From assembly GCF_900683735.1 (NCBI RefSeq), contig NZ_LR215979.1:1116001-1180000 (forward strand): a stretch of 64,000 nt of DNA. The letters run 5' to 3'. The translations under genes and the position numbers were made by a program. The stretch is from Fusobacterium ulcerans ATCC 49185 (GTDB taxonomy: Bacteria > Fusobacteriota > Fusobacteriia > Fusobacteriales > Fusobacteriaceae). The notes below the pieces were generated by a model, which was not told where the DNA came from, did no database searches, and saw only the letters and a program-made list of their open reading frames with translations. Positions 15,819 to 36,951 of the stretch are shown here, one piece after another (the first letter of the stretch is position 1; every line of letters begins with the position of its first letter).

Positions 15819-15847
15819 TTAATTGCTGTCATCCAGAGTATCATATA

Positions 15848-15875
15848 CCTATGGAAACAACAAAAACATAGGAGG
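15848..15875 (+). promoter_or_regulatory. Hairpin overlapping a ribosome binding site
   Basis: CCTATG (15848-15853) and CATAGG (15867-15872) can pair, and the second arm overlaps the AGGAGG that serves ATG 15883. It could limit translation. Confidence 0.35.
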
Positions 15876-15882
15876 TAACAAA

Positions 15883-16200
15883 ATGGCATCAGAAGAAAAT
15901 CAAGTAATTTTAACAGTGGTACAAAAGGAAATTGTAAAGGTAGAAAATGCAATCAAGAGAGAAAAGGCTATATTGAAAAATATAGACGACATCACAGCAA
16001 CACTTGAACATATAGGAGAATTAGTGGAGGCAGGAACAGCATTTCCAGAAAATTCAGCATATGAATCATATACTGACTGGCAGGAAAGCGCAGAGAAAGA
16101 AATTAAGTCTTACAACACTTCACTGGGAACAATAGACAAGTACAGAAGTTTACTTGCAGCATACAGCTTTTATGTAAAAAATAATACACCAGAAGCATAG
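15883..16200 (+). CDS. Hypothetical helical protein, 105 residues
   Basis: The chosen ATG has AGGAGG 7 bases upstream; an upstream in-frame TTG at 15823 lacks a site. The product is mostly alpha-helical (VVQKEIVKVENAIKREKAILKNI; EKEIKSYNTSLGTIDKYRSLLAAY) and has no signal peptide. I do not recognise the family. It lies at the end of the replication-like module and may belong to it. Confidence 0.6.
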   Translation: MASEENQVILTVVQKEIVKVENAIKREKAILKNIDDITATLEHIGELVEAGTAFPENSAYESYTDWQESAEKEIKSYNTSLGTIDKYRSLLAAYSFYVKNNTPEA

Positions 16201-16380: not shown

Positions 16381-16429
16381 TGAAGTTGGAATTATTGAAA
16401 GTTTAGCAGAAGAAAAAGAAATAAAAAAA

Positions 16430-16624
16430 GTTCTCTTTTATACATAAAGGAGAACACTAACTACTTAATTGTTATTAAAAAAACCTTTAACCCATACTTT
16501 GAACACTTAATATCTATGATAGATAATACCTTAAATTTAATAAAAAGTCAATATTTAATCTGCAAATAATATTCTTTAAAATTGAAAAATGTTAGCAAGT
16601 ACACCTTTATGTATAAATACGAAC
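16430..16624. promoter_or_regulatory. Putative invertible promoter switch A, 195 bp
   Basis: Two 26-bp sites, 16430-16455 and 16599-16624, lie in inverted orientation. Each is itself nearly palindromic: the left site is GTTCTCTTTTAT, AC, ATAAAGGAGAAC. Between them the minus strand has TTGACT (16546-16551), a 17-base spacer and TATTAT (16523-16528), a near-consensus sigma-70 promoter now reading leftward. Inversion would point it at the autotransporter gene at 16722. The element is the same length as the one at 24060-24254, and the promoter sits at the same internal offset. The switch function is inferred. Confidence 0.65.
16523..16551 (-). promoter_or_regulatory. Sigma-70 promoter inside switch A (OFF orientation)
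   Basis: The minus strand reads TTGACT, 17 bases, TATTAT. The spacer ends TTAAATTTAAGG, identical to the matching part of the promoter in switch B. Confidence 0.75.
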
Positions 16625-16721: not shown

Positions 16722-19700
16722 ATGATAGAAAGGATTATAAAAGCAGTAAAAAGAGGGAACAAAAAAAGAAGCATCAACATCACAATAGGAGCAGTAGTAG
16801 GATTTTTACTTTCATGTACAGCAGTAATGGGAGCAGATGAATATCTTTGGATAAAGAATGATGGGGGAGGAATAAAATTTAATACAGCAAAAACTACTGA
16901 GTTTGATGGTACTGATGGAACTTGGAATGAAGCAAATCCATATAATAAAAATAGCTGGGACGGAACTACCTACACAAATAATATGACATTATTATCAACT
17001 ACGAACAATGGAAAAGATAATAATGGTATTGATATAAGTTATGGATTGAGACTAAGCGGAGATTTAGGTGAATTTGAATTCATAAATAAAGGTAATATCA
17101 AAAGTGATTATAAGGCAATTGATTTTACTGTTACTACTCTGAGTAAATTAATTAATCATGGAAATATTGGTGGACCTGATGATGATAATGGTATAGATAT
17201 ATTTGGCTCTCATATAGATGAGTTATCAAATAATGGAAATATATCTGATAGTACAGAAAAGGCTATATATTTACATAGGTATTCGACTATAAAGGAATTA
17301 AATAATAATGGAAATATTGATATACGTTATGGTGTATATATGGAGGATTCAAAAATAAATAATTTTACTAACAATGGTAATATCAGTAGTAGCTTTTGTA
17401 CTACACTTTTAGTTGACTCAGAAATAAACATTTTAGAGAACTATGGAAGTGTTAGAAGTAGTTTAGATCTATATAATGAGTCAACTATCAATGTATTAAG
17501 AAATACAGGGACCATTTTTGGTGAAGACTATGCTATCAATAATGAAGGGGGAACTATAAATGATTTATATAATTATGGAATACTTATGAACAGTGATAGG
17601 ATGGTGGATACAATAGTAAATACTGGAACATTAACACTTGATAATTTTGGACTTATTTTTAAGGCAGATGTGGGGAAATATACAGCAACAGAAGGAGATT
17701 TTAAAAACTTTGGAAAAACATTTGAAGCAGGGGGATATACAATAATAAATGCTAAAGCTGAAGGAAGTTTTGATAATATAGTTAAAACTGAAAGCATACT
17801 ATCTTCAGAATTGTCAGGAGATAAAGCATATGTGTTAAATGGAATAATAAATACCTTAGAAGTAAATAAAAATATTTTTCTGCAAGAAGTGAATAATTCT
17901 GTAATCAATGCCTATAAAACAGCAATAGTGATGAATGGAAATGAATCCTATCTTGAACTAAATAATACAAAGGTGAATGGTGGATTTGATGGAAGTTCTC
18001 CTACTATATTAGTAGGAGGAACAAATAATTTCCTAACTATCAAAGGAGATACAATAGTTAATGGAGATATGGAATCAACAGGAACATTAAATACTCTAAT
18101 ACTTTCTGGAAAAGAAAATAATACAAGAAGCACTCGTGATGACAGTATGAATATTTTTAATAAAATAACAAACTTTGGAAGAATAGAGATAGAAAATAAT
18201 GTAACTTTTTTTGAAATAGCTCAGGTAACAGGAGTAGAAAGAATAACTATAAAAGAAGATGGAACTCTTAATTTAAGATTACAGGCAGGAGCAAGTCCTA
18301 TTGATAAAGCAACTCATGCACTTACAACAGGAAATACAGGTTTAACTATAGCAGGAAAAGAAAATACAGATGATAGAGCAGGAACTCTTAATTTTATGAC
18401 TAACGGAATTGGAACTAATACAGTTATAGATATGGGTGGAATAAATTTAGAAAATGTAAAGCTTAGTACTAGTAGTATTATAGATGAATTTGAAGTATTA
18501 GGTGCAGGAAGTCTTTCTGGAAATGAAGGGGATATAAAACTTGGAGTAAATGGAGATTTAAGTGGAATCTATAAAGATATAAGTTCAGATGGATATATAA
18601 AATATAAAGCACTACCAAATCATATAAATTATGATTCGTTAAATAAAATATACCAAAGTTCAATAACTCATGATAATAATGTAAATGCTTTAAGAGAGAT
18701 GATATATTCTACAGGAAAAAGTGAACAATGGCTGAATCTTCTTTCTTTTGCAGGAGATATATATACAGGAAGTCCTTACTCATATAGTTCTGAACTATCA
18801 AGAAAATCTATGGGTATGTTTAGAGATATAGTTACAGAAAACAGTTTCAGACCAGACTTAGATAAGTGGCTGATAATGGGTGGACTGACTCACGCTGATA
18901 GTGGAACTAAAGATACATACTATGGTAGAAATTATCATGGATTTGATACTGGTACATCTAATACAAAAGTTGATATGAAACTTACTGGAGCATATATGCT
19001 GGCTAAGTATGGATATTCTGAAAATATATCACTGGGAGTAACAGTTGGAGGAAATAAGAGTGAAGCTGAAATGTCTATGTCTAAAGTAAAAGGAAACAGT
19101 GGATATATTGGGGCTTTTGCTGAAAACTACAAAGGAAACCTAACATTGAAAGCAGGAGCAGGAATACAATACTCTGAATATGATGCAGATAGAAGAACTT
19201 TAGGTGAAAGTTATAGTGAAAAATATTCAGATATGGCTTACGACATCTACCTAAATGGAAGATATTCTCATAACATTGGAACTAACTTATTCTTAGAACC
19301 ATATGGAACTCTATCATATACATATGTAGATCAAAATGGAATAGATGAGGGGAGCGAAGCCCTTGCAATAAAAACAGATTCAAAATCATTTGACTACACA
19401 GTTGGAAAAATGGGAGTGGACTTGAAAAAAGTAATACCACATGAAAAAGGAAAAAGTACATTGTCAGCAGGGGTAAGTTATACAAAAATACTTGATGGAG
19501 CAGATGAGGAGTTTATTACAGGAAGATTTAAAGGTGGAACAGACTTTGATATCTTAGTAGCTCATAAAAATGAACATAGTATAGGGCTTAATGCTAAATA
19601 TACTCTTGAGCTTGAAGATGGAATTTTGTTTGATGTAAAGGGAACTTATGCAGTAGAGAGAGATTCACATAATGGGGCAGGAAAAAACAAAACTAAAGGT

Positions 19701-19739
19701 GAATGGATAGTAGGAACTGGATTGGGATATAAGTTTTAA
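16722..19739 (+). CDS. Type Va autotransporter, 1005 residues
   Basis: An extended signal peptide (MIERIIKAVKRGNKKRSINI then a hydrophobic GAVVGFLLSCTAVMGA, cut near residue 38) leads to a beta-helix passenger. The passenger has repeats of the type NNGNI (residues about 120-320). A C-terminal autotransporter barrel runs from about residue 715 (WLIMGGLTHAD) to the terminal GLGYKF with a final aromatic residue. It should be displayed on the outer membrane, probably as an adhesin. GGAGGGG lies 7 bases before the ATG. The only strong promoter nearby is inside switch A and points the wrong way, so the gene may be OFF in this assembly. It is paralogous to the next gene. Confidence 0.9.
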   Translation: MIERIIKAVKRGNKKRSINITIGAVVGFLLSCTAVMGADEYLWIKNDGGGIKFNTAKTTEFDGTDGTWNEANPYNKNSWDGTTYTNNMTLLSTTNNGKDNNGIDISYGLRLSGDLGEFEFINKGNIKSDYKAIDFTVTTLSKLINHGNIGGPDDDNGIDIFGSHIDELSNNGNISDSTEKAIYLHRYSTIKELNNNGNIDIRYGVYMEDSKINNFTNNGNISSSFCTTLLVDSEINILENYGSVRSSLDLYNESTINVLRNTGTIFGEDYAINNEGGTINDLYNYGILMNSDRMVDTIVNTGTLTLDNFGLIFKADVGKYTATEGDFKNFGKTFEAGGYTIINAKAEGSFDNIVKTESILSSELSGDKAYVLNGIINTLEVNKNIFLQEVNNSVINAYKTAIVMNGNESYLELNNTKVNGGFDGSSPTILVGGTNNFLTIKGDTIVNGDMESTGTLNTLILSGKENNTRSTRDDSMNIFNKITNFGRIEIENNVTFFEIAQVTGVERITIKEDGTLNLRLQAGASPIDKATHALTTGNTGLTIAGKENTDDRAGTLNFMTNGIGTNTVIDMGGINLENVKLSTSSIIDEFEVLGAGSLSGNEGDIKLGVNGDLSGIYKDISSDGYIKYKALPNHINYDSLNKIYQSSITHDNNVNALREMIYSTGKSEQWLNLLSFAGDIYTGSPYSYSSELSRKSMGMFRDIVTENSFRPDLDKWLIMGGLTHADSGTKDTYYGRNYHGFDTGTSNTKVDMKLTGAYMLAKYGYSENISLGVTVGGNKSEAEMSMSKVKGNSGYIGAFAENYKGNLTLKAGAGIQYSEYDADRRTLGESYSEKYSDMAYDIYLNGRYSHNIGTNLFLEPYGTLSYTYVDQNGIDEGSEALAIKTDSKSFDYTVGKMGVDLKKVIPHEKGKSTLSAGVSYTKILDGADEEFITGRFKGGTDFDILVAHKNEHSIGLNAKYTLELEDGILFDVKGTYAVERDSHNGAGKNKTKGEWIVGTGLGYKF

Positions 19740-23316: not shown

Positions 23317-23610
23317 ATGACAGAAGGGAAATTTATAAGATTCTATAAAAAGAGAAATGCTTTAAAGAATCAGCAGGAAGTAAAAGAAAAGATAGATTTA
23401 TTCTGGAATACATTATTAAAAGTTCTGAATGAAGGGGAAAAGGTAACCTTTAAAAATTGGGGAACATTTGAGCAAAAAGAGGTAAGATCAAGAAAAATAG
23501 TGATATCTAAAATGGATAAAGTTGGTTATACAAAAGCGAAGAAAAAGATAAGATTTAAAGCAGGAGCAGGATTACAGGATATAGTAAATGGAGCTGGTAC
23601 TGATGAATAA
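23317..23610 (+). CDS. HU-family DNA-binding protein, pair 1 first gene
   Basis: This 97-residue protein has the HU/IHF layout: an N-terminal helical pair (FIRFYKKRNALKNQQEVKEKIDLFWNTLLKVL), the conserved NWGTFEQKEVRSRK strand, a beta arm and KIRFKAGAGLQDIVN. HU-type proteins bend DNA and help recombinases and promoters. The stop overlaps the next start by 8 bases (ATGAATAA), indicating coupled translation and probably a heterodimer. The arm lacks the usual RNP tip, so it is a divergent paralog. AGGGGG precedes the ATG. Confidence 0.85.
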   Translation: MTEGKFIRFYKKRNALKNQQEVKEKIDLFWNTLLKVLNEGEKVTFKNWGTFEQKEVRSRKIVISKMDKVGYTKAKKKIRFKAGAGLQDIVNGAGTDE

Positions 23611-23869
23611 AAGAGAATTAGCAAAAGTATACAGTGAGATGAGTAATGGAGAAATATCAGAAAGAAAGGCGCTAAAAGAAATAGATATATTTATTGAAAC
23701 AGTACAGGAGGCTTTACAGAAAAGCCGTTCATTAATATTTATGAATATAGGAATATTTGAAATAAAGGAAAGAAAACCAAGAATAATATCAAATCCAGTA
23801 ACAAGAGAACTAATGAAAATCTATCCAAAGAAGACTGTAAAGTTTAGAATGTCTAAAAAAATGAAATAG
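23603..23869 (+). CDS. HU-family DNA-binding protein, pair 1 second gene
   Basis: I choose ATG 23603 (MNKRELAK) because it matches the start of the paralog at 24717 and uses the ATGAATAA overlap; an in-frame ATG at 23588 would add five residues. The 88 residues show the HU fold, with FMNIGIFEIKERKPR and the arm tip SNPVTRELMKIYP, then KTVKFRMSKKMK. Together with the previous gene it should form a heterodimeric DNA-bending protein. The end of the gene has seven As before ATGAAATAG, unlike its paralog. Confidence 0.85.
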   Translation: MNKRELAKVYSEMSNGEISERKALKEIDIFIETVQEALQKSRSLIFMNIGIFEIKERKPRIISNPVTRELMKIYPKKTVKFRMSKKMK

Positions 23870-24059: not shown

Positions 24060-24254
24060 GTTCTCTTTTATACATAAAAGAGAACACTTACAAATTTTAT
24101 AAAATAATATCTGTCTTTAATGCGGAACTTTATATTGCTAATATGTTAATTAATGATACCTTAAATTTAAAGAATTGTCAATATTTTGATTGCTCATAAC
24201 ACTCTTGAAATTTAAATAATAATATAGAATTCTCTTTTATGTATAAAAGAGAAC
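24060..24254. promoter_or_regulatory. Putative invertible promoter switch B, 195 bp
   Basis: The left 26-bp site (24060-24085) is a perfect palindrome of 12-bp arms GTTCTCTTTTAT / ATAAAAGAGAAC around AC. The right site (24229-24254) is its reverse complement at 25 of 26 positions. The minus strand inside has TTGACA (24176-24181), 17 bases and TATCAT (24153-24158). Inversion would aim this promoter at the HU-like genes at 24428. Length, sites and promoter offset equal those of switch A, while most of the remaining sequence differs. The switch function is inferred. Confidence 0.68.
24153..24181 (-). promoter_or_regulatory. Sigma-70 promoter inside switch B (OFF orientation)
   Basis: The minus strand has a perfect TTGACA -35, a 17-base spacer ending TTAAATTTAAGG, and TATCAT as -10. 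It reads away from the HU-like genes downstream. Confidence 0.78.
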
Positions 24255-24427
24255 TTTTCTAATGAATAAATGCAGATTTATTCTGCTGTAGTTCCCTAAT
24301 TAGCCAAGCTTTTAAAGTATAAAAGCTATAAAAAATGATTGTAGCCAAAATAATGCAAAGGTATAGAAAAAAATAAAAAATAGTATAATTAAAGCATGAA
24401 TTTTAATTGCTGGAAAGGAGGAATATT

Positions 24428-24724
24428 ATGACAGAGAAGGAATTTATAAAGTTTTATAGAGAAAGAAATAATGTTAAAAATTCTAAAGAAATAAAAAATA
24501 AAATAAATCTATTCTGGAATGTACTTTTAAAAGCATTAGATGAAGATAAAAAAGTGTTGTTCAAAGGCTGGGGAACTTTTGAAAAGAAAGAGGTAAAATC
24601 AAGAAAAGTTATAATGCCAAATTTTGAAGAAGTATTTTATACAAAGCCTAAAGAGGTAATAAAATTTAGGATAGGATTAGGATTTGAAGATTTTATAAAT
24701 AAAAATGGTGATGTAAATGAATAA
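24428..24724 (+). CDS. HU-family DNA-binding protein, pair 2 first gene
   Basis: ATG 24428 has AAAGGAGG 7 bases upstream and matches the start of the paralog at 23317; an upstream in-frame TTG at 24407 is not needed. The 98 residues (MTEKEFIKFYRERN...FKGWGTFEKKEVKSRK...VIKFRIGLGFEDFIN) are a clear HU-family paralog. The stop overlaps the next start by the same ATGAATAA as in pair 1, so the pair was duplicated as a unit. A TATAAT at 24384-24389 lacks a good -35. Confidence 0.85.
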   Translation: MTEKEFIKFYRERNNVKNSKEIKNKINLFWNVLLKALDEDKKVLFKGWGTFEKKEVKSRKVIMPNFEEVFYTKPKEVIKFRIGLGFEDFINKNGDVNE

Positions 24725-25040
24725 AAAACAGTTTGCAAAGATATATAGAGAGATGAATTCAAAAGAGATTACTTTAAAAGAAGCAGAAAATGAAGTAAAT
24801 AGATTTCTTGAAACGTTACAAGAAGCTTTGTTGAAAGATGGGGAAGTAAAATTTGTAGAAAAAGGAATATTTGAAATATTTTCAAGAAACCAAAGAGTAA
24901 TATCTAATCCATCAACTAGAGAATTGATGACAATTTATCCTAAAAAGACAGTAAAATTTAGAATGTCTAAAAAATATTTAAATAATGGAGAGGCAGAGAA
25001 AAAAATTCTCTGTCTTTTTATTTCAATAACCTTTTCTTAA
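24717..25040 (+). CDS. HU-family DNA-binding protein, pair 2 second gene, with frameshifted tail
   Basis: This 107-residue product matches the paralog at 23603 up to FRMSKK and then gains a tail (YLNNGEAEKKILCLFISITFS) that reads through its own terminator hairpin. After TCT the gene has six As where the paralog has seven; one more A would give SKKIFK-stop, like the paralog's SKKMK-stop. A single-base loss in the A tract, or slippage, therefore explains the odd end. The HU core is intact (KGIFEIFSRNQR, SNPSTRELMTIYPKKTVKF), so the protein may still work. Confidence 0.8.
   Translation: MNKKQFAKIYREMNSKEITLKEAENEVNRFLETLQEALLKDGEVKFVEKGIFEIFSRNQRVISNPSTRELMTIYPKKTVKFRMSKKYLNNGEAEKKILCLFISITFS
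24990..25018 (+). terminator. Terminator lying inside the 3' end of the second HU gene
   Basis: GAGGCAGAGAA and TTCTCTGTCTTTTT form a stem with an A-rich loop and a T tail. It would normally follow the stop codon that has been lost. Confidence 0.75.
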
Positions 25041-25197
25041 AATTTATATCAAGTTTCTTATAATTACTTTATTTAATTTTATTCTTTTTAATTTTTATTT
25101 TAGCAAAAATTATTTTATTTTTAAATAAAATATGGCAAGAATAATTAAAATAAAAAGTTATTAGATTTCTTTAATTATAAAAATTTCATTTATTATA

Positions 25198-25255
25198 AAA
25201 ATAGTTGTATATCTTTTTAATTTAATGTTAACAATTAAAAGGTATGTAACTATTT
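25198..25255. promoter_or_regulatory. Imperfect dyad upstream of module 1 promoter
   Basis: AAATAGTT...CTTTTTAATT and AATTAAAAGG...AACTATTT form a ~24-bp imperfect inverted repeat around AATGTTAAC, ending 7 bases before the -35. Module 2 keeps it (36678-36735); module 3 does not. It is a candidate operator. Confidence 0.45.
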
Positions 25256-25261
25256 TTTTTA

Positions 25262-25291
25262 TTGTGTAAAAAGTAGTAAGTATGTTATAAT
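25262..25291 (+). promoter_or_regulatory. Promoter of module 1
   Basis: TTGTGT, 18 bases, TATAAT. The equivalent sites of modules 2 and 3 have 17-base spacers. Confidence 0.7.
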
Positions 25292-25348
25292 CTTCTTAAA
25301 TAATAGATAATGATAACAAATTATATTTACTAAAAATATTGTTATTTA

Positions 25349-25404
25349 CTTTTATAAACCATATTTTTAGAATATTTGTTTGTCATTTTTATTAAAAAGG
25401 GGAG
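25349..25404 (+). promoter_or_regulatory. Conserved leader segment of module 1
   Basis: The stretch AACCATATTTTTAGAAT, TTTGTTTGTCATTTTTAT, then a G-run (AAAAAGGGGAGG) recurs in all three leaders (36826-36883 and 47690-47738), although the rest of module 3's leader has diverged. A role in RNA stability or translation is possible. Confidence 0.45.
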
Positions 25405-25471
25405 GAGATATTTTTATTTTCAAAAAATGTAATATTTTAAAAAGTAATTTATTCTTGAGGAGGAAAGAAAT

Positions 25472-26053
25472 ATGAAAAAAACACTGGGGTTATTTTTATT
25501 ATTATCTTGTTTGGCAACAGCGCTTTATTCACAAGAAATAAGTGAAAAAGAGGGAAAAAAAGTTCTTGAACAGATAAGAAGAGAAATACAGGCAGAGGAA
25601 AAGGCAAAACAAAAAGCTATTGAAGATGCTGAAAAAGCAAAAGCAGAAGAGGAAAAAGCTAGAATAGCAGCAGAAAAAGCTGAAGAGAAAAAAGGAAAGA
25701 AAATATTAGAAGACATCAGAAGAGATATGAATGAATCTCTAGAAGAAAAAGTATTCAGAAGTGAAAATAATCCTGAAGCTAGAATAGCAGCAGCTGGAGC
25801 AGCTTTTGAAATAGGAAAAGAAAGAATGGCATTCTTAAAAATGGAAGAAGAAGAAATTATGAAACTTGAAGAAGCTTTGGGAATGGAACCTGATGAAAAC
25901 AGAGTATTTTTAAGTCAAAAATTTGATAAAGTATATGATCAGTTTAATTCAAATAATAATGAGATTGAACTACTCTTACTTGAAAATGAGAAGCTTAATG
26001 AATACTTGAGCAGATTAGATAGAATGGAACAGAAAGTAAGAGCAGGAAATTAA
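25472..26053 (+). CDS. FadA-family coiled-coil adhesin-like protein, module 1
   Basis: This 193-residue protein has a signal peptide (MKKTLGLFLLLSCLATALYSQ, cut near residue 20) and then almost entirely charged helix (EAEEKAKQKAIEDAEKAKAEEEKARIAAEKAEEKKGKK). The C-terminus ends RMEQKVRAGN, like the RAGN end of F. nucleatum FadA. FadA itself is ~129 residues; the extra length is an Ala/Glu/Lys-rich coiled-coil insert. FadA-family genes are commonly found beside fusobacterial autotransporters, and here the autotransporter starts 17 bases downstream. It should be secreted to the periplasm or surface. AGGAGG precedes the ATG. Confidence 0.75.
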   Translation: MKKTLGLFLLLSCLATALYSQEISEKEGKKVLEQIRREIQAEEKAKQKAIEDAEKAKAEEEKARIAAEKAEEKKGKKILEDIRRDMNESLEEKVFRSENNPEARIAAAGAAFEIGKERMAFLKMEEEEIMKLEEALGMEPDENRVFLSQKFDKVYDQFNSNNNEIELLLLENEKLNEYLSRLDRMEQKVRAGN

Positions 26054-26070: not shown

Positions 26071-29000
26071 ATGAGAAAGAACGACATTGAAAAATCTCTA
26101 AAGAGATTTTTGAAAAGAAAGGTCAGTTATTCTCTTTCGCTTTTGATAGCCTTCATGATAACAGGAGGAATATCTTTAGGTGCAGGAATAACAGCAGAGG
26201 AAATACAGGAAACTAAAAGCGATCTTTTAACTAGGATACAAACAGAACGAGAAGAAATAAAAAGAAAAATAGCAGAAAATGAAAGATTAATAAAAGAATA
26301 TAATTCAGATTTTGTGGAACTTGTAAGAAAAGGAGATTTTTATTCAAAACCTCTATTCAACAGTACACAGGTATTTCTTTCATATCAATATTTAGATAGT
26401 GGAAAAATGAAAGACAGAACAGATAAAGAGTTTGCAGAAACTATAGATGCAATCAATAAACACTATGGAACAAGAAGTGGAAGAAGTCTGTTTAGATCTT
26501 CTGGAAACATTGGAAAAGATAAAATAATGGCTGGAAATGGAGTAGCTGTTGATAATGAGGTATTTAGAGAAGAGATAAATCTGGGAGCTAATATAATACC
26601 AGTAGAACCAATTTTACCAGAGGTTAACCCAGAAGTTTCGATAAATATTTCAGAACCTACTGTTAATTTAGGAGCATTACCTGGAACGGTAAATATTTCT
26701 CCAATTACAATATCAACAGTAACACCTCCAACAGTAGTACCACCATCAGCACCAGTGGGAATATTATTAACAGTAACAACACCAGATGCTGTAGATAAAA
26801 TAGCAGTTTCAACTCCAGTGATAATACCAACAACAACACCAAGTGATAAAGAAATAACAGTAACTGCACCAACTGCACCTGGAGGATATGATCCAAGTTA
26901 TATTTCAGTACCAGAAGCACCAAGCAGTCCAGTAATATCATTACCTAGTATGCCTTCAATAAATTTTGTTTCTATGTCTAATGGTAATGGAGCATATGTA
27001 GAAGTAGATGCAGTACCAGGAGGAGCAGGAAGCAGTGCAAGAATACAGAATGGAATAATTTCAGCAGTATCTGTAATAGATGGAACTTTTATGGTAAAAA
27101 GAGAGATTCTTACTCCTTATGGAATAACAACTGCTGGGGGATCTTATGGAACTGCTACTACTACAGCTAATAACTCATTTAGATACAGTTATAGTAATTA
27201 TAAAGCCTATGCTTTTGCAAAAGTAGGGGCAATAGGAGTGGGAGCAAACTCAGCTGCTGGAAGTATAGTAAATGCTGGAACTGTTGGAGATAAATATGCT
27301 ATTTCCTATGCTAATGCTTATGCTGACAGTGCTTCTGTGCAGAGAATAGTAGGAGGACAAGCTCTTACTTTTAACAATGGAAAATTTAGAGTTGCCAGAG
27401 AAAGTGATTCTTCTACTGTATATCTGGGAGAATTTCTTCACATGGATATACATGCTTCAATAGCTCATGGAACTATAAGAACACATCTAGTTAATACTGT
27501 GGATAAAATAGCATCAGATGGAGCTGGAGCTACAGCAGCTACAGCAGCTGTTCTGCCAGCATGGGATGATGTAATAGCAAACTATACAACAAATACAGCA
27601 AGAGCAATAGCATGGGTAAACAGTAATGATATAGCTTTGGAAGGTGGAAATCTAAATCTGACAAATATGTATCATCATACAAGTGCTTTAACAAGTGGAA
27701 TAGTAATAAATACAGGAAAAATACAAATTAGACCATATAAAAGTGGAGGAACAATATATGATGGATATAACTCTGTTTTTGTAGTTTCCTCAGAACAGCA
27801 GGCTAATAAAGCTCAATATGTTATGTATAATAAGGGAGAAATAAATACTTCTACACAAAATACAGGAGTATTTACAATCAATAATGGTTGGTATAGAAGA
27901 GGTGGGGCAACAACTTATTGTAATTCTTCTGAAAATTTTGTAGTAAATAAAGGTGTCATTGAAATGACAGGAAAACATTCAATAGGTGTATATGGACAGT
28001 TTTTATCATGGAATGTTTCAGGAGCTAGCCGAGGTGTTCTGCAGATGGACTTTATGGATGGAACAGATAGAAAGCCTATACAGTTATATGGTGATGAAAG
28101 TATTGGATTGTATGTATTATCAGAATTTAATTCATCTAATATTACAGGAAACTTCCATGTAGACATTGGTGGAATAAATACTGGTAACAAAAGTATAAGT
28201 ATAGATGAAAATGACACTAATGGTGGAGAATCAATAACTGACTACTGGAGTGGAAATACTTCTACAAATACTGTAGATGGAAGTGTAGGTATTTTGTCAT
28301 ATAGAGATATAAATCTTACTTCACATGGAATAGTTATACATGATAAAACTAATGGGAATATAGGAGTAGCTCCACAAAAAAAAGCTGCTTATACATGGTC
28401 ATTTACTGGAGGAGGACAGACAAGCAACTGGGCTATAACAGCTGCAAATCCAAACTTGAATCTAGGATCTGGATATATAAAAATAAATGGTGGAACAAAT
28501 AATATTGGTATATTTGCAAGAGAAGGAAATGTTACAACAACAGGAAGTGTTGATCTTACTGATGGAACTGGAAACTTAGCCATCTATGCGAAAGATTATA
28601 CTGCTGGAGTAGGAAAAGTTACAACAACAGGAAATGTAGCAAATACAGTTATACTTTTTGCTGACAATGGAACAATAAATGTAACTAATAATGTAAAATT
28701 ATTAGGACTAAAAGTAACAGGAGCAACAACAGGAAATCAAAATAATATCTTAGCAGCATATGCATCTAATACTGGAACGATAAGCATGAATAATTCTGGA
28801 ATTATTGGAAGTTTAACATCTCCTGATATTGAAGTGACAGGAATGGAACTAGGGGATGCTTCTGGTCAATACAGAGGTCTTGCATTAATGGCTGACAATG
28901 GAGTTATCAATGGAAAAAATAATTATATAAAAGTAGTAAATGGAGCAGCAGGAGTAGCTTCAATAAACTCTGGAAATATAGATATTTCAGGATCAACTAT

Positions 29001-32000
29001 TTATGTAAATAATGGTTATGCAGTATATTCAGATGGTACAGGTACTGTTAATTTAACAAATGGAAAGCTTGTATTAGATGGAAATTCTGTTGCTTTTGAC
29101 TTGGATTTTAATTTAGCAAATCCTTTAACATTAACTGGATCAGAAATACATATAGTTTCTGATGATGTTACTGCTGTAAATTTAAAAAATGTATCAACAG
29201 CATTGTCAGTTAATAATTTAAAAAGCAGTATAATTACTGCTCTAGGTGGAGCTATCAATATAACTGATGATGGAATACATGATAAGTACAAGATAGCTGC
29301 AGTTGATGGTGGAACTTTGAATATTGATACTAATATAGACAAAGCTGATCCTGATCCAGACTCAAATGGATACTTTTATTATAAAAGATTTTTAGGACAA
29401 AGACTTAAATTAAATGTGACTGGAGGAATAGAAGTAAATGCAGCAATTAACAGTGCTGAAGCAACTGCATATTTCAAAGGGCAGGTAGTAGGACTTGAAA
29501 TGAATTCCAGTTCATCAGCTTCTGGTGTCAGCGACACACAGATTAATCTAGCAACTGGTTCTAAAGTAATAGCAGACAGAACAGACAGTGGTGCTGGAGC
29601 TATCGGTTTATATATGAACTTTGGAGAAATTAAGCTTGATGCAGGTTCTAAAGTAGAAGTAGAAAAAGGAAGTAATGTTGTAAATAATGAGGCGGTAGGA
29701 GTATATGCTGTTAATGGAAGTAAAGTTGATAATGCTGGAACTATTGAAGTAGGAGGAAATAGATCTATTGGTATTTTAGGAATGGCATATAGAGAAGCTC
29801 CAATAGGAACTGTGATAGTAAATGAATTTGGAGCCAGTCTTACTGATCAGGGAAAAGTTAATATTATTAATGACAAAAATATAACACTTGATGGAATTGG
29901 AACAATAGGTATTTATGCACATAATAATAAGGCTTCTGGATTAAATACTGATGCTGTTGTAACAAATACAGTTAATGGAGTAATAACAGTTGGTTCTTCA
30001 GATAGCTCAAATGCTGCTGTAGGTATTTATGGAAAAAAAGCTACTATTTCAAATCTTGGAAAAATATCTGTAGGAGATGGGGGAGTAGCAATTTATGCAA
30101 CAGAAGGAAGTAGAATAACAGACCTCGGAATTCTTGATTTAGGAGCAGATGGAGTAGGAGTTATGGCTGATGGTACTTCAGATATAAGTGCAACATCTGT
30201 TACTCTTACATCAAATAATGCTGGAATTCTTGGAAAAACTGGTATTTTCTATAAAGGAGATTTGGGAACAGAAAGCAAAACTATAGGTGTAGCTGTAAAT
30301 GCTTCAGCTCTTGATAAAGGAACAGCTATATATGTAGAAAATATGAATATTACTTCTTCTGGAATTTTAAATATAGGTAAAGAAGGAGTAGGTATTTTTG
30401 TAAAAGGAAATTCGACTCAAACAGGAACAAATACAGGAACTATTGATCTTACATCTGGAAAAACAGGTGCAGTAGGTATGTATACTAAAACTGCTAATAT
30501 TATTAATGATATAGCTGGAATTATTGAAGTAAGAGATTCTTCTCAAATAGGTATGTATGCAGAGGGAACTAATAACAAAGCTACAAATATAGGAGCAATT
30601 AAACTAAATGTAGATGGCTCTACAGGTATCTATGTAAAATCTGGTGCAATAGCTGAACTTAATACTGGAAATAACATAACATTTGCTGGTAAGTCAAGTG
30701 TTGGAGTTTTTGCAGAAAATGCAGCAGTAAATCTTAAAAGTAATTTGACTTTTTTAAATAATAATGAAAATAAAAATATTTATGTTTATGGGAAAGATGC
30801 AACAGTTGGAATAGATGCAGGTAAAACTGTAACAATAGATGGAATGGGAACTCCAACAACAGCAGGAAATAAAACTGTAGGAATTTATCTTGAAAATGCT
30901 GGTACTGGAAGTACATTTAATGGAGCAACAGGACAAGTTGTTGTTACAAATGAAGCAGTGGGTATTTATTCTAAAGGAAATAATACTTTAAATGTAAATG
31001 TAACAGCTGATGGAGTAAAAACAACAGGAGTATTTATTGAGGATGGATCAAGTATAACAGGAACTGTAACTGCCAGAGGTGCATCAGGAGCAGGTGCAGT
31101 AGGAGTATATGGAAGTAAAGGAGCTGTAACAATAGGTGCTGTAGGACTAACTCTTAAGACAGATACAGATAAAGGAACAGGAATGTATCTTGCTGATGGC
31201 GCTTATGCATCTGGAGGAAAAATCACTATAAATAATACAGCTGCAGTTGATAACATAGGAGTATACTATAGTAAGGGAACAGCTTCAGGAACTGTGACAA
31301 ATGGCTCTGAAATTGAGCTTACAGGAAATAAAAGTATAGGAATATATGCAGCAGATGGAATAAATCTTGTAAATACTAAAAATATAAATTCAACTACTTC
31401 AAATAATATAGCTTCATATGTGGGAGGTAATTCAACACTTACTTCAAATGGAAATATAACTATGACTGGGACAGATAACATAGGGATATATACTGGAAAA
31501 GGAACTGGAGTAAATGCTGGAACTATTAACTTAACTGGAGCAGCAGGAACATCCTCAGCAGGAATGGCAGCTAAAACAGATGTTGCTGGAGACATAGCTA
31601 CTGTGGAAAATAAAAATATAATCATTGTAGGAAATAATCTTGGAATGTATGTAGCAGGTGCTGGAACAAGTTCAGGAAAGAATACAGGAACAATAACAGC
31701 AACAACAGGAACAGGAGTATATGTAGATGGTGGAGGAAACAGCTTTGATGGAACTGGAGGAAGTATCACATCAAATGCAGTAGGAATCTATTTAAAAGAT
31801 ACAGATGCTAATAAAATAACTGCTGGAACTTTGAATATAGGTTCAGGAGGAGTAGGAGTATTTGGAGAGAATGCTAAGATAGATTTTGCAGTAAATGTAG
31901 CAGGAACAGGAGCAGTAGGAGTTGCAGCTAAAAATGGTTCAGTAATATCAGGAAATGTAACAACTGGACAGGATTCAGTAGGTGCATATCTTCTTGATAG

Positions 32001-35000
32001 CACAGTAACATTTAATGGTGCAAATATAACAACAGGAACAAATAATTCAGGAACATCAGTAGGAGTTCTATTTGATGCAGGTATAACTGGTACATACACT
32101 ATGAACAATGTAAGTGTAAATGCTAAAAATGGAGTGGGAATATATCTAGGTGGAGTTGGAATGACTCTTAACCATAATGGAACTGTAACTACTGAAGGCG
32201 GAATAGGAATATATGTAAAAAATGGAACTACTTTGACAACAGGAACTTCAACATTAAATATAAGTAATGGTGGAACTGGAATATATGTAGAGCAGGGAAC
32301 AGCAAACTTAGGTTTAAGTGGAAACTTAGCATTTAATTTTGGAACTGGTGGCGGAATAGGAATATACAATAATGGTGGAACTTTAAATATTGGAAGTAAT
32401 ATTACACTTAGTGGATCTGGATCACTTGCAGCAACAACTGATGGAAGCTTTATTTCATCAGGAAATATCACAGTAGGTGAAGGTGGAACTGGTCTTCTTG
32501 GGCAATACAGCAGTTCTTCTATAGCAGTACAGAGTATAACAAATAGTGGAATAATTACAGCAAGCAGTGGTGGAATAGGGTTAGCTGCAGTTAAAGCAGG
32601 AGCAGGAGTGCCAGGAGCTGCTATAACAGTAAATAACTTTAACACTATCACTATTTCTGGAAAATCATCTGGAACATCAGAACCATCAATAGGAATATAT
32701 ACTGATATAGCAGATGTAGTAAATACTGGAAACATCAATGTAGGAACAGATGGAATAGGGATATATTCTATTCATAATGGAGTTCTTACATCAGTCCAAA
32801 ATGATAATATGAAAATGACAGGAACAGATGGAATAGGAGTATACCTTAAAGGTGCAACAAGTGGGCTTCTATCAAACAGTATAACTTCTACTGGTGGAAC
32901 AGGAAATACAGGGGTAATTCTTGAAGATATAGGAACTATTGCAATAAATGCTGGAACAATTACACTTGGTGAAGCAGGAGTAGGAGTAGTTGCAACTGGA
33001 ACAACAACTTCAACAATTACAGGATCAATTTCAGTAGGGGATTCTAATGCAATTAAAAGTGCTATAGGGATAGTAGCTGATAATGGAGCAAATATAACTC
33101 TTGCTGGAGCAACAACAATAACAGCAGGAAATGGTGGAATAGGAGTATATGCCGAAGGAGCTGGAACAACAATAACAGTTCCTAATGCAGCAAATATAAA
33201 TGTTGGAGCCAATGGTGTATATATGTATTCCAATGGAGCTAATTTAAGTTTTGCAGGAAATATCACAGCAAATAATAAGATAGGATTAGTAGCAGATGGT
33301 GGAACTGTAACTAGTACTGGAGCAACAATAAATGTTCAGAATGGTGGATTAGGAGTATTTGTTAAAAATGCAGCTCCTGTATTTACAGGAACACCAATAA
33401 ATGTTCAGGCAGGAAATTCATCACAATACTCAATAGGAGCTTATTATGATGAAGTATCTTCTATCGGAACTGCCCCAGTAATTACACAAACAGGAAGCTA
33501 TACAATAGGAATGGTATTGAATGATTCAACAGGAACAACAGCTGGAGGAATTTCTATTGGAGGATCAGGTTCAATTAATCAAATAGGAGCTATGGCAAAG
33601 AAAGGCTCTAATCTTACAATAAATGGAAATGTTTTAGTTGATGGAAATGAAAATATTGGTGTATATGGAGAAGATAGTTTAATTAGAACAATAGGAAGTA
33701 TAACTGTTTTAGATTCTTCAACATGTGTAAATAAATCAACATCATCAATAGGAGTTTCAATAAATGGAGGTTCATACATAGGAAATGGAAATCTTTCAGT
33801 AGGAAACTATAGTATAGGAGTCTTTGGAAAAGATATGACAGTGGGAAGTGTAATAACTCAAGGAACTGGAATAGAGATAATGACTGTTGGAAATAATGGT
33901 CTTGGAATCTATGGAGAAGGAACTGGTGGGACTATAACTGCTGATATGTCAAACATTACAGTAGGAACTGACAATGCAATAGGGGTATATGCAAAAGGAA
34001 TGAACTCAGTAGTAACAGGAAACATGGGTATTGGTGCAAATACAAGTATAGGTATTGCAAGTGAAGGTAATGGAAATGTAGCATATACAGGAACTATGAC
34101 AATAGCAAATAAAGCTTCTACAGCATCAGTAGGAATCTATAAAACAGATGGAACAGGAATAATTTCAACATCAGCAGGTAGCTGGTCAGTAGGAGAAAAT
34201 GGATATGGAATCTACTTAAAACAGACAAAAGGACATTCAGCAACAATTACTAATAATGCTGATATGAATTTACAGATGGCAGCAGTAGGTATATTCTCAT
34301 CTGGAGAAAACATAGTAAGTAATTCTGGAAATATAATAGTTGGATCTACAAATGTAAATGGAGATCATGCTAATTTGGAAAAACATGAAAATTCTATAGG
34401 AATATATCTAAATGGTGGAAGTACAGGAATAAATACTTCATCAGGAGTTATAACTATAAATCATGATCATTCAGTTGGAGTATATGTAGCAGGTTCAACA
34501 ACATCATTTACAAATGAAGGAACTATCAATGTAGATAATGGTGGAATAGGGATACTGGTTCAAGATAAAGGAACTGCTGAAAATAAAGGAACTATTAATC
34601 TAGGAAACACTTTAGCAGCTTGTAAAAGCCCAACTGTAGGAATGGCAGCATATGGTGGTGCAAAAATAATCAACTCTCTTTCTGGAGTAATCAATGTAAA
34701 TGAAGGAACAGGAATGTATGTAAATACAGGAGCTGAACTTATTAACAAAGGGACAATTAATGTACTCAATGGTATAGGAATAGAGGGGAATGGAAAAGTT
34801 ACAAACAGTGGGCTTATAACAGTTACTGGAACTGGAACAGATAGAAGTACTTCTGGAGTAGGGGCAGCAAATGTTGGAGCAATAGAAATAGATTCAGCAG
34901 GAAATATAAAGATAAATGATAAATATGTATCTGTTGGAGGTACTTTAACTACTGATGGAATTCTGATAATAGATGGTGCTTATGTAGATGTTACAACAGG

Positions 35001-36351
35001 AATACCATTATTCAGTGCTTCAAGTGTAAGTGGAGAAGTTAATATTATGTCAAACTTTGCTACAACAGGAAATGGAATAACATATTTGATGAAAAACTTT
35101 GTAAATACAGCAGCTGGGACAGTCACTGGAAACAAGCTTGTTCCTGTAACATCACCTCTATTTGTAGCCAAAGTGACAAGCAATGGAGACCTTGCTATTG
35201 CCAAAAGGCCATATGCAGATATAGTAATTGGAGAACAATTTGATGCTCTGCATAAAGGTTTAGATAATATTCTTGAAAATAGTGGTGGAAATGGAAGAGA
35301 TGCTGAAATTCTAAAGAAATTAAATGCTTACTTAAATGACTTCTCTGGTGAGGACTTTGAAAGAGAAGCTTCAAGAACTCTTGCTGAAACAAGAGGGGAT
35401 ATTTATGCAACTATTCAAAGCAGAATGCAGGATATCAATCAGGCCTTTGATAACTCTTTCTATGAACTTGAATCTTCATATAATCTGACTAAAGACAGCA
35501 GTAAATACAGTGTGATCTATACTGATGGAAAATATAGAGATTCTACATTAGGAATAGATGAATATGATTACAAGGTAATGGGACTTCTATATATGAAAGA
35601 AAAAGAAGGAGCAGAGTATGGAAGCAAATATGGATATACAATAGGATTTGCAGGATCGAAGTTTGACTTTGATGATGGTGGATCAAAAGAGGATGTGTAC
35701 TCATTAAGAGTAGGAGCACACAGAGTTAAAAATCTAAGTGAGGAACATAAAGTATCATGGCTGTCAAGAATAGAGCTTGGATACAATAGACATATTGCCA
35801 AGAGAAAGCTTGAGTTGGATACGACTTATGAGAATAAAGGAGAATACAATACTTACTCTGTAGCACTGGATAACAGGCTTACAAAAGTTATCTATACAGA
35901 CTTGTCTAGACAGTTGGATGTATATGCTGATTTAGATTTGGAATATGGAAAAGTAGATGACTTTAAAGAAAGCGCAGGAAGCAAAGGCGGACTTGAAGTA
36001 CAGATTAAAGATAATGACTACTTAAGCGCACAGACTGGAGCAGGAGTGAAGGCATCCCAAAGAATCTATGCAGGAAATGACATCTCAGTAAAAGTAACAG
36101 CAGATGTGAAATATGCATATGAATTTGGAGATAACTATGATGGAAACAAAGCAAGACTTAAAAATGGAGAAGAGGGATATTACAGTCTGATAACTCCAGA
36201 AGAAAGAGAAGGAAAACTGACAGGAAAAGTTGGACTTACAATAGAAAAGGCTAACCACATGGGAGTAACATTTGAAGTGGAGGCAGCAGATGAAAATCAT
36301 AAAAAAGATTCATCAATCAAATATGGAGTAAGATTCAATTACAAATTCTAA
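26071..36351 (+). CDS. Giant type Va autotransporter, module 1, 3426 residues
   Basis: Domains in order: an extended signal region (residues 1-40, MRKNDIEKSLKRFLKRK then a hydrophobic YSLSLLIAFMITGG); a coiled coil with FYSKPLFNS (41-98), part of the fusobacterial autotransporter-associated N-terminal domain; a Pro/Thr-rich stalk (about 180-300); a very long beta-helix built of GIGIY-like turns; and a C-terminal barrel (about 3135-3426, SKYSVIYTDG to VRFNYKF). The size and layout recall the RadD/Fap2 group of fusobacterial adhesins, so adhesion or co-aggregation is likely; the ligand is unknown. A 1.2-kb stretch (30781-31985) is nearly identical to module 3. AGGGGGAAAG precedes the ATG. Confidence 0.92.
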   Translation: MRKNDIEKSLKRFLKRKVSYSLSLLIAFMITGGISLGAGITAEEIQETKSDLLTRIQTEREEIKRKIAENERLIKEYNSDFVELVRKGDFYSKPLFNSTQVFLSYQYLDSGKMKDRTDKEFAETIDAINKHYGTRSGRSLFRSSGNIGKDKIMAGNGVAVDNEVFREEINLGANIIPVEPILPEVNPEVSINISEPTVNLGALPGTVNISPITISTVTPPTVVPPSAPVGILLTVTTPDAVDKIAVSTPVIIPTTTPSDKEITVTAPTAPGGYDPSYISVPEAPSSPVISLPSMPSINFVSMSNGNGAYVEVDAVPGGAGSSARIQNGIISAVSVIDGTFMVKREILTPYGITTAGGSYGTATTTANNSFRYSYSNYKAYAFAKVGAIGVGANSAAGSIVNAGTVGDKYAISYANAYADSASVQRIVGGQALTFNNGKFRVARESDSSTVYLGEFLHMDIHASIAHGTIRTHLVNTVDKIASDGAGATAATAAVLPAWDDVIANYTTNTARAIAWVNSNDIALEGGNLNLTNMYHHTSALTSGIVINTGKIQIRPYKSGGTIYDGYNSVFVVSSEQQANKAQYVMYNKGEINTSTQNTGVFTINNGWYRRGGATTYCNSSENFVVNKGVIEMTGKHSIGVYGQFLSWNVSGASRGVLQMDFMDGTDRKPIQLYGDESIGLYVLSEFNSSNITGNFHVDIGGINTGNKSISIDENDTNGGESITDYWSGNTSTNTVDGSVGILSYRDINLTSHGIVIHDKTNGNIGVAPQKKAAYTWSFTGGGQTSNWAITAANPNLNLGSGYIKINGGTNNIGIFAREGNVTTTGSVDLTDGTGNLAIYAKDYTAGVGKVTTTGNVANTVILFADNGTINVTNNVKLLGLKVTGATTGNQNNILAAYASNTGTISMNNSGIIGSLTSPDIEVTGMELGDASGQYRGLALMADNGVINGKNNYIKVVNGAAGVASINSGNIDISGSTIYVNNGYAVYSDGTGTVNLTNGKLVLDGNSVAFDLDFNLANPLTLTGSEIHIVSDDVTAVNLKNVSTALSVNNLKSSIITALGGAINITDDGIHDKYKIAAVDGGTLNIDTNIDKADPDPDSNGYFYYKRFLGQRLKLNVTGGIEVNAAINSAEATAYFKGQVVGLEMNSSSSASGVSDTQINLATGSKVIADRTDSGAGAIGLYMNFGEIKLDAGSKVEVEKGSNVVNNEAVGVYAVNGSKVDNAGTIEVGGNRSIGILGMAYREAPIGTVIVNEFGASLTDQGKVNIINDKNITLDGIGTIGIYAHNNKASGLNTDAVVTNTVNGVITVGSSDSSNAAVGIYGKKATISNLGKISVGDGGVAIYATEGSRITDLGILDLGADGVGVMADGTSDISATSVTLTSNNAGILGKTGIFYKGDLGTESKTIGVAVNASALDKGTAIYVENMNITSSGILNIGKEGVGIFVKGNSTQTGTNTGTIDLTSGKTGAVGMYTKTANIINDIAGIIEVRDSSQIGMYAEGTNNKATNIGAIKLNVDGSTGIYVKSGAIAELNTGNNITFAGKSSVGVFAENAAVNLKSNLTFLNNNENKNIYVYGKDATVGIDAGKTVTIDGMGTPTTAGNKTVGIYLENAGTGSTFNGATGQVVVTNEAVGIYSKGNNTLNVNVTADGVKTTGVFIEDGSSITGTVTARGASGAGAVGVYGSKGAVTIGAVGLTLKTDTDKGTGMYLADGAYASGGKITINNTAAVDNIGVYYSKGTASGTVTNGSEIELTGNKSIGIYAADGINLVNTKNINSTTSNNIASYVGGNSTLTSNGNITMTGTDNIGIYTGKGTGVNAGTINLTGAAGTSSAGMAAKTDVAGDIATVENKNIIIVGNNLGMYVAGAGTSSGKNTGTITATTGTGVYVDGGGNSFDGTGGSITSNAVGIYLKDTDANKITAGTLNIGSGGVGVFGENAKIDFAVNVAGTGAVGVAAKNGSVISGNVTTGQDSVGAYLLDSTVTFNGANITTGTNNSGTSVGVLFDAGITGTYTMNNVSVNAKNGVGIYLGGVGMTLNHNGTVTTEGGIGIYVKNGTTLTTGTSTLNISNGGTGIYVEQGTANLGLSGNLAFNFGTGGGIGIYNNGGTLNIGSNITLSGSGSLAATTDGSFISSGNITVGEGGTGLLGQYSSSSIAVQSITNSGIITASSGGIGLAAVKAGAGVPGAAITVNNFNTITISGKSSGTSEPSIGIYTDIADVVNTGNINVGTDGIGIYSIHNGVLTSVQNDNMKMTGTDGIGVYLKGATSGLLSNSITSTGGTGNTGVILEDIGTIAINAGTITLGEAGVGVVATGTTTSTITGSISVGDSNAIKSAIGIVADNGANITLAGATTITAGNGGIGVYAEGAGTTITVPNAANINVGANGVYMYSNGANLSFAGNITANNKIGLVADGGTVTSTGATINVQNGGLGVFVKNAAPVFTGTPINVQAGNSSQYSIGAYYDEVSSIGTAPVITQTGSYTIGMVLNDSTGTTAGGISIGGSGSINQIGAMAKKGSNLTINGNVLVDGNENIGVYGEDSLIRTIGSITVLDSSTCVNKSTSSIGVSINGGSYIGNGNLSVGNYSIGVFGKDMTVGSVITQGTGIEIMTVGNNGLGIYGEGTGGTITADMSNITVGTDNAIGVYAKGMNSVVTGNMGIGANTSIGIASEGNGNVAYTGTMTIANKASTASVGIYKTDGTGIISTSAGSWSVGENGYGIYLKQTKGHSATITNNADMNLQMAAVGIFSSGENIVSNSGNIIVGSTNVNGDHANLEKHENSIGIYLNGGSTGINTSSGVITINHDHSVGVYVAGSTTSFTNEGTINVDNGGIGILVQDKGTAENKGTINLGNTLAACKSPTVGMAAYGGAKIINSLSGVINVNEGTGMYVNTGAELINKGTINVLNGIGIEGNGKVTNSGLITVTGTGTDRSTSGVGAANVGAIEIDSAGNIKINDKYVSVGGTLTTDGILIIDGAYVDVTTGIPLFSASSVSGEVNIMSNFATTGNGITYLMKNFVNTAAGTVTGNKLVPVTSPLFVAKVTSNGDLAIAKRPYADIVIGEQFDALHKGLDNILENSGGNGRDAEILKKLNAYLNDFSGEDFEREASRTLAETRGDIYATIQSRMQDINQAFDNSFYELESSYNLTKDSSKYSVIYTDGKYRDSTLGIDEYDYKVMGLLYMKEKEGAEYGSKYGYTIGFAGSKFDFDDGGSKEDVYSLRVGAHRVKNLSEEHKVSWLSRIELGYNRHIAKRKLELDTTYENKGEYNTYSVALDNRLTKVIYTDLSRQLDVYADLDLEYGKVDDFKESAGSKGGLEVQIKDNDYLSAQTGAGVKASQRIYAGNDISVKVTADVKYAYEFGDNYDGNKARLKNGEEGYYSLITPEEREGKLTGKVGLTIEKANHMGVTFEVEAADENHKKDSSIKYGVRFNYKF
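30781..31985 (+). repeat. Passenger block shared almost identically with module 3
   Basis: It aligns with 52855-54065 with one 6-base indel. Whole 60-base lines are identical (31681-31800 equals 53761-53880). Passenger sequence on either side is related but much more diverged. Confidence 0.85.
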
Positions 36352-36372
36352 TTAAACTAATTATTAAAATAT

Positions 36373-36400
36373 TAGGCTGCTCTTATTCAGGGGCAGTCTA
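36373..36400 (+). other. Hairpin after module 1 autotransporter
   Basis: TAGGCTGCTC and GGGCAGTCTA form a 10-bp stem without a proper T tail. It recurs after module 2 (47017-47047) but not module 3. It may protect the mRNA 3' end. Confidence 0.5.
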
Positions 36401-36454
36401 TTATTATTTTAAGAAGTTTATTGAAAAAATAATTAGGAATAAAAAATCTAATGT

Positions 36455-36492
36455 AAAAAGTGTAAATGAGTTGAATTTCTTTACACTTTTTT
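36455..36492 (+). terminator. Terminator of module 1
   Basis: AAAAAGTGTAAA and TTTACACTTTTT form a perfect 12-bp stem with a T tail. Confidence 0.85.
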
Positions 36493-36740
36493 ATTTCAAT
36501 GACCTCTTCTTAAAATTTATATCAAGTTTCTATAATTACTTTATTTAATTTTATTCTTTTTTTAATTTTTTATTTTAGCAAAAAATTATTTTATTTTTAA
36601 ATAAAATATGGCAAGAATAATTAAAATAAAAAAGTTATTAGATTTCTTTAATTATAAAAAATTTCATTTATTATAAAAAATAGTTGTATATCTTTTTTAA
36701 TTTAATGTTAACAATTAAAAGGTGTATAACTATTTTTTTA

Positions 36741-36769
36741 TTGTGTGTAAAAAGTAAGTGTGTTATAAT
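36741..36769 (+). promoter_or_regulatory. Promoter of module 2
   Basis: TTGTGT, 17 bases, TATAAT, preceded by the same dyad as module 1 (36678-36735) and followed by the conserved leader segment (36826-36883). Confidence 0.72.
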
Positions 36770-36951
36770 TTTCTTGAATAATAGATAATGATAACAAATT
36801 ATATTTGCTAAAAATGCTATTATTAACTTTTATAAACCATATTTTTAGAATATTTGTTTGTCATTTTTATTAAAAAAGGGGGGATTTAATATTGGTTTTA
36901 CAAAAATCATAATATTAAAATATGCAATTTAATCTTAAGGAGGAAAGAGAT

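Follow-up and report, generated by a model that had tools for sequence, protein, structure and literature searches.

Small invertible promoters upstream of surface genes are known outside the fusobacteria. In Mycoplasma penetrans there are 38 mpl (P35) genes, most of them independently switched by a tyrosine recombinase (PMC2268961, PMC8593674), and among the master DNA invertases of Bacteroides fragilis (Mpi; Tsr19/BF2766; Tsr0667) one recombinase inverts many distant envelope-gene promoters, which show an OFF bias (PMC4747536). Escherichia coli fimS is a 314-bp promoter segment inverted by FimB and FimE (PMC9993118), and in Clostridioides difficile site-specific inversion takes place upstream of several genes, with RecV flipping the flagellar switch (PMC9286219, PMC7446863). 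The autotransporters of F. varium and F. ulcerans number 32-44 and are mostly of unknown function; 44 were counted in F. varium Fv113-g1, where RNA-seq found a few with increased or relatively high expression (PMC5720691). The words inversion, promoter and recombinase are absent from the main text of that genome paper (PMC5720691), and we found no report of promoter inversion in Fusobacterium in the open PMC literature, a scope outside which subscription papers largely fall.

The window, that is, the whole stretch of 64,000 nucleotides of F. ulcerans DNA that was analysed, holds at 16430-16624 a cassette of 195 bases, placed before a surface-protein gene, which is very probably a site-specific invertible promoter in the OFF orientation. 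Its parts are as follows.

16420-16458, minus strand: distal arm as RNA, a hairpin then U7, terminator-like for a predicted OFF transcript (-7.6 kcal/mol, z -2.8)
16430-16455, plus strand: distal (left) putative recombination site, GTTCTCTTTT-ATACAT-AAAGGAGAAC, in a 10+6+10 layout, its central 6 bp the same as its partner's
16456-16598, minus strand: putative invertible interior with the promoter, 86-90% identical in five paralogous loci and flipped in L007
16523-16551, minus strand: promoter TTGACT-17-TATTAT, reading away from the autotransporter (OFF)
16599-16624, minus strand: gene-proximal (right) putative site, reverse complement GTTCGTATTT-ATACAT-AAAGGTGTAC, its inner half departing from the consensus GAAC

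The earlier note had described two inverted 26-bp arms around a minus-strand promoter reading away from the autotransporter, and we recovered both features, the arms at exactly 16430-16455 (left arm GTTCTCTTTTATACATAAAGGAGAAC) and 16599-16624, and the promoter at 16551-16523 with the ATG at 16722. The arms are complementary at 21 of 26 positions and identical over their central 8 nt, and in a dinucleotide shuffle 0.00 chance matches to the arm motif are expected in the window. On the minus strand, TTGACT (16551-16546) and TATTAT (16528-16523) are separated by a 17-nt spacer; 47 nt lie between the -35 element and the proximal arm, and 67 nt between the -10 element and the distal arm. A promoter between short inverted repeats is thus found upstream of the gene, whose ATG lies 97 bases from the right arm and is preceded by GGAGG. 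RNA folding gave no stable hairpin for the proximal arm of this cassette. The inner half of the proximal site reads GTAC where GTTC is usual, and this deviation may make the site weak. At 16430-16624 itself, we infer that the cassette flips, that its promoter is active, which enzyme acts on it, that the distal arm terminates transcription and that expression is phase-variable.

The cassette belongs to a large family. Within the 3.84-Mb genome the segment has five relatives at 86-90% identity and two that are more diverged. The arm pattern has 37 forward and 39 reverse matches genome-wide (reversed control pattern, 0), which pair at 140-260 bp spacing into at least 23 cassettes; with two more in which the second arm is altered and the core kept, the total is ~25. 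The genome encodes 39 autotransporter-domain genes, and cassettes precede the mid-size ones; we found none before the very large (>3000 aa) autotransporters. Paired HU/IHF-like genes are targets as well, as are a few other genes, and some autotransporter targets have an HU-like gene in between; a target was taken as the nearest long ORF reading away from the cassette. Among the 98 Fusobacteriota genomes searched, sites are abundant in 4 of 12 congeneric genomes (37, 29, 45 and 49 forward matches) and absent from the other 94, except for a lone place in one of them. F. varium Fv113-g1 is among the four: matches on its plasmid contigs fall at the same coordinates as in AP017969 and AP017970. We analysed 70 cassettes from the four species (23 + 15 + 20 + 12), counts that are lower bounds because only the stretches around matches were examined. 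Beyond the distal arm, 29 of the 70 have an A-run. No exact match was found in viral contigs and no related cassette on plasmids. In five places (L052:2520, L159:3720, L143:2042, L154:2045 and L156:2019) the partner ends are GGGCGC/GCGCC-like instead of GTTC/GAAC with the core kept; these are either a second site variant or decayed arms. At nine loci (L106, L110, L127, L107, L118, L108, L035, L140 and L155) cassettes stand before other envelope-type genes, which, to guess from the N-terminus only, may encode products like a chain-length determinant, a membrane acyltransferase and a small outer-membrane protein.

It is the family that gives weight to the promoter. Promoter matches alone are no more frequent here than chance predicts for such AT-rich DNA (64 promoter-like sites in the region vs 62 expected). 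Strong sigma-70-like promoters occur in 56 of 70 cassette interiors vs 3.4% of shuffled interiors, and only because of this family-wide enrichment is the promoter at 16523-16551 significant. The spacing of the family promoters is always 17 nt, and they fall into a few fixed geometries, lying 47/67, 73/23 or 73/14 nt from the arms.

The sites themselves indicate the class of enzyme. In 68 of 69 site pairs, picked by positions 1-9 and 18-26 only, positions 11-16 are identical in inverted register, and this central 6 bp differs between cassettes though matched within pairs. Positions 11, 13, 14 and 16 vary, yet in a set of 25 non-redundant cassettes they match 25/25 (10.7-19.8 expected); at the variable positions 5-7 the pair match is at or barely above expectation. 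Imperfect dyad half-sites surround a shared central overlap within the 6-8 bp usual for such crossover sites, and the pattern obeys the overlap rule known for tyrosine recombinases, here with 6 bp in a 10+6+10 site. The length of the sites and a variable central dinucleotide that is always matched within a pair would also fit a serine invertase of the Hin/Gin/Mpi type, inverting 26-bp palindromic sites across a central 2-bp overlap as in hix and gix. However, positions 11 and 16 vary between cassettes and yet match in all non-redundant pairs, which argues for an overlap of 6 rather than 2 bp, and the sole serine recombinase of the genome (PF00239) is a large-type protein of 478 aa, no short Hin/Gin-type enzyme being found there. 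We rejected the serine-invertase reading on the size of that protein and hold it to be highly improbable. The tyrosine-type crossover sites suggested earlier are instead supported, by the 68/69 overlap matches and by a short tyrosine recombinase with the same distribution, described below. The one pair of the 69 with differing overlaps (ATACAT vs ATCTAT), L132:6773-6949 in G027, sits between two other cassettes; it looks like a hybrid cassette and is predicted to be locked.

Sister cassettes are found in both orientations between conserved flanks. In G026, L115 and L117 have flanks that are 87% (left) and 90% (right) identical and cassettes that are 88% identical when one is flipped (interior alignment score 126 flipped vs 40 as-is), and the L115 interior is likewise opposed to three further relatives. 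In the genome of the window, L047 and L041 have flanks 95% and 97% identical and interior scores of 100 flipped vs 75 as-is. At L007 (957050-960241) in the same genome, an autotransporter is preceded by a cassette from the subfamily of 16430-16624 (interior local score 73 flipped, 24 as-is), with its interior flipped relative to the gene; this is the ON form, its promoter lying at matching distances, 47 nt from the upstream arm and 68 nt from the downstream arm.

Alternatively, one could envision a fixed, non-inverting repeat, in which an outward promoter lies upstream of duplicated autotransporters and the arms are terminators or regulator binding sites. Forty of the 41 callable autotransporter cassettes in the four species share the OFF orientation, as called from a consensus promoter score (number ON per species assembly: 1, 0, 0 and 0), and the distal arm with its U-run does fold like a terminator hairpin. 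A fixed repeat would not, however, place interiors in opposite orientation between conserved flanks, nor would it explain the ON cassettes of HU-like pairs elsewhere in this genome (two loci) and in other species (8 OFF and 4 ON among callable HU-pair cassettes), and the 68 of 69 matched overlaps would be needless for terminators or binding sites. We thus consider this explanation quite improbable. The observation that 40 of 41 autotransporter cassettes are OFF means that inversion is strongly biased or rare, and this bias is our chief ground for caution because a static element would look alike at most loci. A strong OFF bias is known in other switches, for example IVp-I of B. fragilis (PMC4747536). 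The proposal of the earlier note, an invertible promoter in its OFF orientation, is supported by the opposite orientations of paralogs between conserved flanks, the overlap matching, the fixed promoter geometry and the co-distributed recombinase.

The genome has 11 PF00589 matches, among them two related short tyrosine recombinases of 198 and 213 aa that are 73% identical. The 198-aa protein is encoded at contig 992076-992669 and its paralog at 1678061-1678654; neither has lost a catalytic residue (R44, K68, H146, R149, H172, Y181), and the congeneric genomes with relatives at or above 73% identity are precisely the 4 of 12 that bear sites. FimB and FimE are likewise short tyrosine recombinases, of ~200 aa. 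A catalytically intact, putatively cognate recombinase is thus co-distributed with the sites, an association only, and one that would be confounded if, as may be, the four site-bearing species are one clade. We regard the 198-aa protein, encoded away from the cassette, with its 73% paralog, as the likely invertase. Enzymes 49-64% identical to it are found on plasmids of Fusobacterium as well as in genomes that lack the sites, so the recombinase family has other work too; the plasmid relatives probably do something else. Three of them, ~59-64% identical, lie at AP017969.1 60356-60952, AP017970.1 39035-40003 and NZ_CP084160.1 18062-18667, two of the three near toxin-antitoxin or stabilisation genes, and the plasmid enzymes are possibly resolution enzymes ancestral to the invertase. 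No cassette with the arm motif was found beside the genome's own recombinase genes (around L054, L055 and L056), nor was the site family found beside more distant recombinases (G006, G007, G018, G021, Fusobacterium plasmids and Cetobacterium). We rejected a conserved linkage of recombinase and HU: HU-like genes lie near the recombinase at L054 and L055 and not within ~2 kb in G026-G028.

With 11 PF00589 matches in the genome, the inverting enzyme could also be another resident tyrosine recombinase (the 189-aa protein, an XerC/D-like protein such as L010 or L018, or a phage integrase) in place of the 198/213-aa pair; the 189-aa protein, which adjoins the housekeeping HU gene and is 28% identical, is also short. 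Yet the 189-aa type is present in at least 6 congeners without any sites, the 333-aa enzyme is found throughout the genus and three others occur patchily; the distribution of these five, the ones compared, does not fit that of the sites. We think it rather unlikely that one of these other enzymes is responsible, and return to the 198/213-aa pair.

Downstream of the cassette the window continues as follows.

16722-19739, plus strand: autotransporter AT1, 1005 aa, PF03797
19864-23235, plus strand: autotransporter AT2, 1123 aa, PF03797
23317-23610, plus strand: HU/IHF-like protein, pair 1, first gene, PF00216
23588-23869, plus strand: HU/IHF-like protein, pair 1, second gene, PF00216
24060-24085, plus strand: second cassette, left site, with the arm motif
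24153-24181, minus strand: second-cassette promoter TTGACA-17-TATCAT, pointing away from HU pair 2 (OFF)
24229-24254, minus strand: second cassette, right site, with the arm motif
24407-24724, plus strand: HU/IHF-like protein, pair 2, first gene, likely ATG ~24428
24717-25040, plus strand: HU/IHF-like protein, pair 2, second gene

Both genes directly downstream match Pfam Autotransporter, and AT2 is probably co-transcribed with AT1, as no cassette separates them. The suggestion that inversion might also switch on the HU genes holds in part: pair 1 (23317-23869) could be reached from the AT1-AT2 transcript, and only by a possible read-through past a hairpin downstream of AT2, while pair 2 (24407-25040) has an OFF cassette of its own. 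This second cassette (24060-24254) was absent from the earlier note, as was the genome-wide family. Nucleoid proteins such as IHF influence fimS inversion. One could imagine a genome-wide network in which one trans-acting recombinase, overlap-coded sites and ~25 promoters are joined by HU/IHF-like pairs feeding back on inversion or transcription, with none or one of the mid-size autotransporters ON at any given moment, an extension we offer tentatively and consider unlikely.

Some further features of the window were noted. A small gene (MASEENQVILTVVQKEIVKVENAIK...) and an adjoining HTH-like gene (MTREDYMCQKLG...) lie at 15823-16200, with copies at L039, L040, L041 and L047, and recur beside many cassettes; a family search with the former gave no match. 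Near-identical long AT-rich non-coding regions (25030-25480 and 36340-36930) precede two giant (>3000 aa) surface-protein genes, which are without an inversion cassette. For the 3426-aa product of 26071-36351, hmmscan of the whole protein returned no Pfam family and a six-frame genome search found an autotransporter domain near the C-terminus (contig 1151515-1152279); the hmmscan miss probably stems from the filtering of so long and repetitive a protein.

We propose that a short tyrosine recombinase, for which the 198-aa protein and/or its 73% paralog is the best candidate, acts in trans on the cassette at 16430-16624. Bound at the half-sites of 10 bp, it would carry out strand exchange over the 6-bp overlap ATACAT and thereby turn the interior round. 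Once ON, the TTGACT-17-TATTAT promoter would transcribe AT1-AT2 by way of the proximal arm; while it is OFF, its transcript would head outward and probably end at the distal-arm hairpin and U-run. One enzyme would serve the ~25 cassettes of the genome, and cassette-specific overlaps would hinder exchange between different cassettes. The many flip-switches in this genome suggest that the bacterium varies its surface by DNA flipping.

If inverting promoters control most of the mid-size autotransporters and usually keep them OFF, these proteins would be under-reported from laboratory cultures, and strain differences in adhesion or immunity could reflect DNA orientation rather than gene content. 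The near-perfect overlap matching within pairs offers ready-made material for testing the specificity of tyrosine recombinases, and the candidate enzymes open the system to simple two-gene genetics.

The kind of system is thus already known and, in Fusobacterium, apparently unreported. The mpl genes of M. penetrans are alike in being many, dispersed and surface-protein-encoding, in that most of them have a small invertible promoter each, and in the use of a tyrosine recombinase, but they belong to another phylum and encode lipoproteins, whereas the Fusobacterium targets are type V autotransporters and HU-like pairs. In B. fragilis, Mpi is a serine recombinase and the targets are polysaccharide, SusC/D and vesicle loci; with Mpi-Tsr, as with mpl, the likeness is of mechanism only. 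The C. difficile flagellar switch is controlled via Rho factor and not by a mobile promoter (PMC7446863), and fimS has a single target operon, in contrast to the Fusobacterium sites, which serve ~25 targets that the candidate recombinase genes do not adjoin. Unusual in Fusobacterium are the scale of the system, overlaps that differ from cassette to cassette, and the inclusion of HU/IHF-like pairs among the switched genes.
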